The notes under the pieces were generated by a model. The model had not been told where the DNA came from, did not search any database, and saw nothing but the letters and a program-made list of their open reading frames with translations. A program made the position numbers and the translations under genes. From the NCBI GenBank assembly GCA_022779165.1, contig JALFTO010000012.1:1-41737 (forward strand): DNA of 41,737 nucleotides, written 5' to 3'. Source of the stretch: Lachnospiraceae bacterium. GTDB lineage: Bacteria; Bacillota; Clostridia; Lachnospirales; Lachnospiraceae. Shown piece after piece: positions 21,483 to 24,741 of the stretch. Position 1 is the first letter of the stretch, and every line of letters starts with the position of its first letter.

Positions 21483-21569
21483 AATGCAATTGTGCATTGT
21501 GACGAAAGAGCTTTGTGTTATTTTACTAAAAAACAGTTTGCAATTTTCAAAGTATTGTAGTAAGATTAT

Positions 21570-21600
21570 GACATCGGGCGGTCTGCCCGGTGTCATTTTT
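21570..21600 (+). terminator. Terminator after the alcohol dehydrogenase
   Basis: The stem gacatcgggc / gcccggtgtc, with G-U pairs and a five-base loop, is followed by attttt. Just upstream, TTGCAA (21538) and TAAGAT (21561) are spaced 17 bases like a promoter, which would start RNA within this hairpin. The 21483-21715 gap holds nothing else I can identify. Confidence 0.75.
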
Positions 21601-21715: not shown

Positions 21716-24328
21716 ATGAAACGGAAAAACAAAATAGTGTTGAAATTTTTCGCAGTCGCACTGACGGTTTCTTTTTTGTACCCTTTTTGCAGCCTTCCGC
21801 TTAATGCGGAAGAGATGGCAGCTGCACCGGCAATGCAATCAGTGACGGAAAGCAGGCAGGAGGAAGAGCAGGAAAATGTGCCGGAAGCTGAACGGCAGGA
21901 AAGCCGGGAAACGGTGCCGGATGTTGGACAGGAAGAGGAAAGCGAAAGCGCGTCAGAAGCCGGACAGGAAGAAGGGAAAGAAAGCGCGTCAGAAACCGGA
22001 CTGAGCGGAGAAGCAATCGGGGATGCACAGACGGACGATGCACAGGAGGAAGAGATCGCGGGGAGAGAAGAAATTGATGACGCAGAACAGGAGGAGGCAG
22101 TTGCGGAGCCACAGCCGGTTGTGGGCAGGAGTCTTATGGCACTCAGATCGGTTTCCACCACAGGGATTGACGGCGATGATCCGGAGGCGGGGCAGAGTGA
22201 TACATTCGGTTACACAGGAGGAGAAGTACAGTGGACTGTTCCGGTGAGCGGCTATTATGACATCTATTGTTATGGCGCAAAGGGCGGTAGTGGTTCGGCA
22301 CATCAGAGAAATAAATATAATTCGAACAACTATGCCAGCGCTTCCGGCGGAAATCCCGGTGCTGCACGCGCGTCCAGAGTGTTTTTGCAGCAGGGAATGA
22401 GCCTGACGATGCACGCCGGAGGTGCCGGTGGAAATGGAAAATGTGATTCCTACGCAGGCAGGGATCAGGGCGGCAGCGGGGGCTACAACGATGGCGGCAG
22501 AGGCAGCGGACGCAGTACAATATGCGACAATGATGACAATCATAATGGCTCCTGCGCCTCCGGCGGAGGCGGTGGGTCATCCTATATTTTATACGGGGAA
22601 ACCAAAATTATATCGGCAGCCGGTGGAAATGGCGGCAGTGCATCGTATCGTTGCAATGATGGAAGCGGCTCCGCATCGGGAGGTTACGGAGGAGGCAGCA
22701 CGGCGTTAAACAGTACGGATGAGGTGGCATGGCAGACGGATGAGCTAAATGAGGAAAGTTACGGAGTGAACAGTGGAGATGGATATATTCAGCTGACGCT
22801 GATCAAAGTGATGCCTTTTGTTAAACTGGAGGCAGTTCCGGAAGACTGGACATGTGATGCGGTGGAATTGACCGCAACGGTTAAGTCTACAGGGAACGGT
22901 CTGGAGGATAACTATCTGTCGTGGGAAAGTGCAGAGGACGGCAGCGAAATATGGACGGATTCTCTGACATACACGGTGGATAAAAATGGAACCTATACCT
23001 GTAAGATACGCGATATTGACGGAAATACAGGGACGGCGGAAATCAGAGTGGACAACATCGATAAACTGAAACCTTCGGCAGAGATCACATCGACACAGGA
23101 GTGGACAACCGAACCGGTCACTCTGACTGTGTCTGCCGAGGATAGGGCTGCAACAGATGAATATGGCTGCAGCGGCCTCGCGGAAGCAGCATATCTGTGG
23201 GGAAAGAACGGAGAAAGGCAGGAAGAGGAAATCTGGGGTACAGATATCACATACACAGTGGATGCGAGCGGCAGCTATTTCTGCAAGGTGCGCGATCAGG
23301 CAGGCAATATACGGAAGGTGGATTACTATATCGGCTGCATTGATGTGACAGCACCGTCAGCAACGCTGACAGCTGATCAGACAAAACCGACATGGAGAGA
23401 TGTGACCCTGACAGTCACTGCAACTGATACAGGCATCGGACTGGCAGAACTGCCGTACTGCTGGGAACAGGATGAGGACGGAGAGGATATCTGGACGGCG
23501 GAGAACACACTTGTAACAGATCAAAACGGCCTCTATCACTGTAAAGTACGGGATGTGCTCGGTAATACCACAGAGGTGACTTGTCTGGTCAATAATATTG
23601 ATAAGAGCTTAAAATATAAAAGTGACAGTGATGGCGGAAGTCATTCCGGAGGCGGTGGAGGTGAAAATGAGCCGCAAAAGACAGAACAGGATCAGGTGAT
23701 GCCGGATGGGATACTGCCTGAAGAACTTGTGGAGCTGGCAGCGGAAATGCAGACGGAACAGGACGGTGATGGAGATGATGGACATCGCGGAAGAAAAATG
23801 TCCGATGTAAACAGAGATGGAGACGTTCCGGATAAACTACAGGAGCTGCTTGGCATGACAGACGGAGAACCGGAAATCATGGAGGAGGAAATTATCACGC
23901 CGATCCGGCCGACGCTGTCTCCCGAGCCATCCGATGAGAATGCACAGCACGGAACGGTTCAGAAAGAGGAAGACGGGAAACGTTTTTGGGATGATCCCGA
24001 TATCAAAACCATCATTCTGTATTCCGCATGGCTGGCGGTGATACTGTGCGGACTTGCATGGCTTCTCTTCTCCCTGCTGTTTGAGCATGTGACAGTGTAC
24101 CGCGCTGACAGGAAGGGAAGATTCCGAAAGGCAGGGCGTCTCGTGATCGTTCGTAAGAAGGATTACCGGCAGATCAACCTCACTCCTCTGCAGGAAAAGA
24201 ATGAGGACAGGAAGTATAAACTGCGTTTTTCCCGGGGATTTGCATATTTGAACAAAAAGGAAAAAATACTGATCCGGACGTATCATGGCGTGGAACTCAG
24301 GAATGTCAGCAGGGAAATCATAATGTAA
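21716..24328 (+). CDS. Membrane-anchored surface protein with glycine-rich domain and three Ig-like repeats
   Basis: The 870-residue exported protein starts at ATG 21716 after GGGAGGTAAC. The track's earlier start has no ribosome site and hides the signal peptide. Residues 1-32 form the signal peptide (FFAVALTVSFLYPFCSLPLNA). Residues 35-130 are a Glu/Gln/Ser low-complexity stalk with repeated ESASEAGQEE-like units. Residues 162-360 form a glycine-rich domain (TFGYTGGEVQWTVPVSGYYD, AGGAGGNG) like those around ALK/LTK receptors and bacterial surface proteins. Residues 366-630 hold three repeats sharing IWT..LTYTVD.NGTY.CKVRD..GN. After an acidic linker comes one membrane helix (764-788) and an 80-residue basic cytoplasmic tail. 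There is no LPXTG sorting signal. The ligand is unknown; an adhesin or sensor role is inference. Confidence 0.8.
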   Translation: MKRKNKIVLKFFAVALTVSFLYPFCSLPLNAEEMAAAPAMQSVTESRQEEEQENVPEAERQESRETVPDVGQEEESESASEAGQEEGKESASETGLSGEAIGDAQTDDAQEEEIAGREEIDDAEQEEAVAEPQPVVGRSLMALRSVSTTGIDGDDPEAGQSDTFGYTGGEVQWTVPVSGYYDIYCYGAKGGSGSAHQRNKYNSNNYASASGGNPGAARASRVFLQQGMSLTMHAGGAGGNGKCDSYAGRDQGGSGGYNDGGRGSGRSTICDNDDNHNGSCASGGGGGSSYILYGETKIISAAGGNGGSASYRCNDGSGSASGGYGGGSTALNSTDEVAWQTDELNEESYGVNSGDGYIQLTLIKVMPFVKLEAVPEDWTCDAVELTATVKSTGNGLEDNYLSWESAEDGSEIWTDSLTYTVDKNGTYTCKIRDIDGNTGTAEIRVDNIDKLKPSAEITSTQEWTTEPVTLTVSAEDRAATDEYGCSGLAEAAYLWGKNGERQEEEIWGTDITYTVDASGSYFCKVRDQAGNIRKVDYYIGCIDVTAPSATLTADQTKPTWRDVTLTVTATDTGIGLAELPYCWEQDEDGEDIWTAENTLVTDQNGLYHCKVRDVLGNTTEVTCLVNNIDKSLKYKSDSDGGSHSGGGGGENEPQKTEQDQVMPDGILPEELVELAAEMQTEQDGDGDDGHRGRKMSDVNRDGDVPDKLQELLGMTDGEPEIMEEEIITPIRPTLSPEPSDENAQHGTVQKEEDGKRFWDDPDIKTIILYSAWLAVILCGLAWLLFSLLFEHVTVYRADRKGRFRKAGRLVIVRKKDYRQINLTPLQEKNEDRKYKLRFSRGFAYLNKKEKILIRTYHGVELRNVSREIIM

Positions 24329-24393: not shown

Positions 24394-24741
24394 CAAAGTT
24401 ACGGTCAGAGGCAAAGACCGGGGAAATGCGATGAAGGAGACTCTTGTTACAGAAAGCGACAGGAATGCGGTGTCACCGACTGAGAGCACTGCTGGTGGGA
24501 AGTAATAAAGGGAACACTCCGGAGCAGATATCCTGAACAGCCGGATTGGTAAAAGTAGGGGTATACGTTGTGCGCGTTAAGCACAGAGAGTGGATAAGGC
24601 GGTCAAGCGGCTTGGGTCTGTATCGGATGAGATTTGATAACAGATAGAGCTGTCGGCTTATCAATGCGGGTGGTACCGCGGGTGATTGAACAAAAGATTT
24701 CCCGTCCCGGAATGCAGTTAATTGCGTTCCGGGATTTTTTT
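24394..24741 (+). promoter_or_regulatory. T-box leader riboswitch controlling aspS-gatCAB
   Basis: The diagnostic T-box sequence gggtggtaccgcgg is at 24668-24681, followed by a strong terminator (tcccggaatgca / tgcgttccggga plus seven T, 24705-24741). Upstream, the stem I apical region (gagag...ctggtggg) and tccggag are typical. Uncharged tRNA would stabilise the antiterminator and allow transcription. Downstream aspS suggests tRNA(Asp) or tRNA(Asn). I could not fix the specifier codon by eye; GAT or ATC within cagatatcctgaac are candidates. This leader accounts for most of the 24329-24794 gap. Confidence 0.93.

Follow-up and report, generated by a model that had tools for sequence, protein, structure and literature searches.

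Comparison with its relatives shows that, at the level of sequence, the 870-aa surface protein encoded in the window (the whole stretch of 41,737 nucleotides analysed here) consists of two evolutionarily separable modules, of which the inner one is constant. The inner module is a membrane helix followed by a C-terminal domain, here called the tail, and related bacteria carry the tail under differing outer parts or under almost none, which suggests that it may be the working core of the protein. That the protein would be more than a passive adhesin, as the original prediction held, is supported by the tail, which is the most conserved segment within the genus, has a confidently predicted fold, occurs under differing ectodomains and stands nearly alone in several genera.

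The gene and the layout of its product

The ORF runs on the forward strand from an ATG at 21716 to a stop codon at 24326-24328, in agreement with the coordinates first proposed, and its start is preceded by GGGAGG. Upstream, a strong terminator (21568-21596) sits between it and a gene for an iron-type alcohol dehydrogenase, which suggests that the two may be transcribed independently of each other; as the gene has this terminator before it and a T-box leader with aspS after it, it apparently forms its own transcription unit. The T-box leader belongs to aspS and scores 70 bits against an Rfam gathering score of 93, such that a default Rfam scan overlooks it. The features are as follows:

21568-21596, forward: intrinsic terminator with a 13-pair stem, a 3-nt loop and a T-rich tail
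21716-21811, forward: signal peptide, residues 1-32, MKRKNK and a hydrophobic core, with the hydrophobic segment starting at residue 6
21812-22129, forward: acidic low-complexity stalk, residues 33-138, 35 D/E against 6 K/R in 106 residues
22163-22813, forward: glycine-rich domain of the ALK/LTK GRD type, residues about 150-366 (Pfam PF12810; ectodomain model against 7lir, 7nx1 and 7nwz)
22814-23068, forward: Ig-like repeat 1, residues 367-451 (repeat self-comparison; beta-rich in the model)
23069-23353, forward: Ig-like repeat 2, residues 452-546 (Pfam Ig_2, 29.4 bits; repeat self-comparison)
23354-23611, forward: Ig-like repeat 3, residues 547-632 (repeat self-comparison)
23612-24004, forward: low-complexity linker, residues 633-763, the least conserved part (mostly 4-17% identity to five non-sister orthologs)
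24005-24079, forward: membrane helix, residues 764-788, strongly conserved (hydropathy; block 769-798 is 69% identical)
24080-24325, forward: conserved basic tail domain, residues 789-870, predicted to be cytoplasmic (AlphaFold2 model, family homologs, dN/dS)
24422-24712, forward: T-box leader of the downstream aspS, thus belonging to the next gene (Rfam RF00230, 70 bits, E 3.2e-15)

The acidic stalk of the original prediction is plainly visible in the composition of residues 33-138, and so is its single membrane helix, as hydropathy gives only one hydrophobic segment, near residue 762, beyond the signal peptide. The tail is basic, with 23 K/R against 9 D/E. From the signal peptide, the one helix and the excess of K/R after it, we infer a topology with the N-terminus outside and the tail inside the cell. 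No LPXTG motif precedes the membrane helix in the protein sequence, and the helix is followed by 82 residues rather than by a short basic end, so that the protein departs from sortase-anchored (LPXTG) adhesins on both counts.

When the gene is compared with its sister ortholog (L031), dS is no more than 0.05-0.08 over the stretch for signal peptide and stalk (21716-22129) but about 0.35-1.6 over the remaining gene; this low value suggests that the 5' end of the gene may be a recent recombination tract.

The outer part is built of known kinds of domains

In Pfam and NCBIfam scans of the full-length protein the glycine-rich domain was not detected. With the stalk omitted, Pfam PF12810 (ALK_LTK_GRD) matched at 32.6 bits (cut-off 24.5, E 1.1e-7) and PF13895 (Ig_2) at 29.4 bits (cut-off 27), and in one ortholog ALK_LTK_GRD reached 61 bits over the full-length sequence. 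The three repeats are mutually homologous (phmmer E about 1e-12 to 1e-20), and Ig-type profiles matched at E<=0.01 in 7 of 10 orthologous ectodomains. The ectodomain model (pLDDT 86) was matched to crystal structures of the ALK/LTK GRD (7lir, E 4.4e-6; 7nx1, E 5.5e-6; both with probability 1.00; also 7nwz), a score that may owe something to the Ig part as well. Both the glycine-rich domain of the ALK/LTK type and the three Ig-like repeats were thus recognised correctly from the letters alone, and the outer domains are of known kinds. Congeners have extra paralogs of the glycine-rich or Ig kind (L043, L033 and L035), whose C-termini are divergent or different, unlike the window genome, in which the 870-aa protein gave a single match.

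The same ectodomain model also matches bacterial giant adhesins (GhpA, SiiE and an ice-binding adhesin) with E down to 1.9e-8. From this side the protein could be read as an ordinary variable surface adhesin, whose ectodomain would bind a host, mucus or food-particle ligand and whose helix and tail would be a mere anchor, since the ectodomain resembles these adhesins as well as ALK and Ig-like repeats are a common stalk. We nevertheless consider this reading rather unlikely, because a passive anchor needs no folded 82-aa domain that is conserved above the ectodomain, and because helix and tail are kept without an ectodomain in several genera.

Conservation and predicted fold of the tail

Relatives were found in nine congeners. 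In a comparison with five non-sister orthologs, identity per 30-residue block is 49-69% in the helix and tail (residues 769-870) and 4-53% in the other parts, the glycine-rich domain and the repeats lying mostly at 26-53%. Relative to the sister ortholog, the tail has a dN/dS of 0.063, the repeats 0.098, the glycine-rich domain 0.136 and the linker 0.21, the value for the tail being imprecise as its dS of 1.6 is near saturation. Judged by these substitution rates, the tail is under purifying selection. The original prediction had called the tail conserved-looking and had named a non-conserved one as the outcome that would speak against it; the tail is in fact conserved, and helix and tail are the best-conserved segment among the congeners.

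An AlphaFold2 model of the tail built with 30 homologs (pLDDT 94.8, pTM 0.82) is a compact all-β domain of seven strands and one short helix. Searched against PDB sequences, the tail profile reached no better than E 0.11, and the best hit of a PDB fold search, transthyretin (E 0.18, TM 0.39), is not meaningful; a viral fold library returned nothing at E<=0.001. No Pfam, NCBIfam or PHROG family matched more than 2 of 30 tail members, all weakly, and these matches of single members were treated as due to chance. Searches of the openly accessible literature found no paper on the tail family. By comparison with Pfam, NCBIfam, PHROGs, the PDB and the viral fold library, the family, like its modular distribution, appears to be uncatalogued. 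As an alternative to a role in docking, discussed below, a folded basic tail could simply bind membrane lipids.

Distribution of the tail and exchange of its outer parts

With an enlarged profile HMM, which matches window positions 24080-24325 with E 2.4e-27, homologs of the tail were detected in 34 of 397 genomes sampled from the family (about 9%) and in 28 of the 319 genomes of good quality. Gene content suggests that this family is probably Lachnospiraceae. An order-level sample added two matches outside the family, with E 2.6e-5 and E 0.004, the latter with an internal stop; match L098 was judged spurious and excluded. Tails from the window genus and from the rest of the family align with E 1.3e-12 over 81 columns (hhalign) and are, by this alignment, homologous. 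The window protein itself has the mark of the family, a homologous C-terminal domain of about 82 aa right after the membrane helix.

Across the relatives, the outer part that accompanies the tail is of no fewer than four kinds. In the window genus it lies under the glycine-rich and Ig ectodomain; elsewhere it follows His/Cys 'HxHxG...GGxCY' segments with Ig repeats, Ig repeats only, List_Bact-like repeats or short disordered stretches. About 10 genes encode barely more than the helix and tail (L080, L083, L089, L090, L092, L093, L097, L132, L137 and L140), L089 as called being without a helix and of uncertain start. In L093 the helix-tail gene is separated from prfB by 232 bp and from hisC by 49 bp, and in L140 only 3 bp separate it from the preceding gene; with flanking genes so close, these two loci conceal no remnant of an ectodomain. 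A survey of the tail on other surface proteins, which had been proposed as a check, thus gave an answer in two parts: the tail does recur under different ectodomains, but it is not spread freely over many proteins, being mostly present in one copy per genome and at a preferred locus.

The separation also occurs in the other direction. In two congeners (L038 and L046) the gene at the corresponding locus still encodes the ectodomain, but its product closes with a short KRKKRN in place of the tail, which has been lost. The tail is therefore not always needed and the ectodomain can exist without it; in some lineages, on this sequence evidence, the ectodomain may function alone. These two congeners speak for the adhesin reading, as only a short basic end follows the helix in them.

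His/Cys-rich starts resembling 'HxHxG...GGxCY' occur in many relatives (L047, L049, L079, L081, L082 and L086). These stretches are possibly metal-binding; three members were scanned and no Pfam family exceeded its cut-off.

The locus of the tail genes

Of 44 distinct tail genes, 35 have prfB, aspS or hisC nearby in their contig stretch. The order in the window genus is secA-prfB-tail gene-aspS-gatA-gatB, into which the alcohol dehydrogenase gene is inserted in the window genome, and outside that genus it is tail gene-hisC-...-SAM methyltransferase-hslO-nadE. L085 and L093 bridge both arrangements with secA-prfB-tail gene-hisC. The preferred locus and the joining of the two arrangements in L085 and L093 point to vertical inheritance at what would be an old locus, rather than to a mobile adhesin cassette. 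Phage records gave no match, and the plasmid matches lay over the repeats and stopped before the helix. The gene hisC by itself does not predict the tail, as only 3 of 30 hisC loci examined had a match to the tail HMM within about 1.5 kb. The suspicion that the relatives lie in a Tad-pilus operon was rejected, as their neighbours are hisC, hslO, nadE, secA, prfB, aspS and gat genes.

Three tail-like proteins (L133, L142 and L144) are encoded away from the preferred locus. They neighbour, respectively, a 1874-aa ORF, a topoisomerase gene whose region also has transposase-like genes, and a 1327-aa secreted-looking protein.

Among the neighbours, a TPR-type family 2 glycosyltransferase was considered as a protein that the tail would recruit to the membrane. 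Its gene is on the same strand and directly adjacent at several loci, for example 3 bp apart in L140, and is near the tail gene elsewhere; at E<=1e-60 the enzyme was found in 28 of 31 tail-bearing genomes outside the window genus, against 10 of 40 tail-less genomes. However, none of the 8 tail-bearing genomes of the window's own genus has it, which refutes it as a general partner, and at least one genome in which no tail was detected has it beside hisC. As the tail-bearing genomes may be close relatives, the correlation itself may reflect ancestry, and we regard recruitment of this enzyme as highly improbable.

Proposed role of the inner module

We propose, at about an even chance, that the helix and tail dock a partner and in this way set or couple the outer module at a site of the envelope. 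In this proposal the lineage-specific outer module, which runs from the signal peptide through the stalk, the glycine-rich domain and the Ig-like repeats to the linker, would span the cell wall, and the membrane helix with the 82-aa folded basic all-beta domain is the constant core. By docking a cytoplasmic or membrane partner, the inner module would place or couple the outer one at one specific envelope site.

A second way of giving the tail a function is that of a transmembrane receptor, in which a ligand outside would alter the state of the tail and the tail would act on a cytoplasmic regulator, with a logic like that of the RsgI-type biomass sensors. A constant inner domain with exchangeable outer domains is a layout that sensor families share, the conserved helix would suit the passage of a signal or oligomerisation, and in ALK/LTK the glycine-rich region is part of the extracellular portion of a receptor (PMC10605310). 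Against this, the forms without an ectodomain would be unable to sense an outer ligand, no regulator gene is constantly adjacent across the tail loci, and RsgI_N (no match up to E 10 in Pfam), kinase or other known signalling domains were not found in the Pfam and NCBIfam scans. On balance, a receptor seems to us quite unlikely. The standalone helix-tail genes argue both against a pure anchor and against a pure ligand sensor. The signalling or coupling to an inner partner that was first suggested stays at the level of a prediction: these scans gave no known signalling domain, and the comparison of neighbourhoods of the tail loci yielded no general partner.

Taken further, the docking proposal leads us, tentatively and with the chances somewhat against it, to an as yet uncatalogued class of bacterial transmembrane adaptors, in which a constant core of helix and beta-domain would couple a cytoplasmic machine to exchangeable surface domains, including the ALK-type glycine-rich one, and would work without an outer part too.

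Surface proteins of gut-type anaerobes are usually interpreted through their outer domains. In this protein it is the inner part that stays constant; none of Pfam, NCBIfam, PHROGs and the PDB holds a convincing match to it, and it is kept when the outer part is missing. If the tail docks a cytoplasmic partner, there would be a coupling between cell surface and interior that escapes annotation, and the tail would be a clear handle for identifying that partner.

Comparison with known systems

The RsgI-type transmembrane anti-sigma factors of Clostridium thermocellum have an N-terminal inner domain that acts on a sigma factor (PMC12203970). The comparison with the window protein concerns only the way of working, that is, a small inner domain, one helix and exchangeable outer sensing domains (PMC12203970); the inner domain of the window protein is, by contrast, C-terminal and its N-terminus is a signal peptide.

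The glycine-rich region of the ALK/LTK receptors belongs to their extracellular part (PMC10605310). The window ectodomain likewise holds a PF12810 domain, and the window protein would share with these receptors a single membrane pass with the N-terminus outside. However, the window protein is bacterial, has no kinase, MAM, LDLa or EGF domain, and carries Ig-like repeats between the glycine-rich domain and the membrane. Its inner part is an unrelated beta-domain of 82 aa without a Pfam match, and with no tyrosine kinase domain (Pfam) in this part the protein falls outside the receptor tyrosine kinases.

With Ig-like repeat surface proteins and giant adhesins such as GhpA and SiiE, the window protein shares a signal peptide, a low-complexity stalk, Ig-like repeats and the fold of the ectodomain. 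It differs from them in that it carries no LPXTG and in that its helix is followed by a conserved, folded inner domain.
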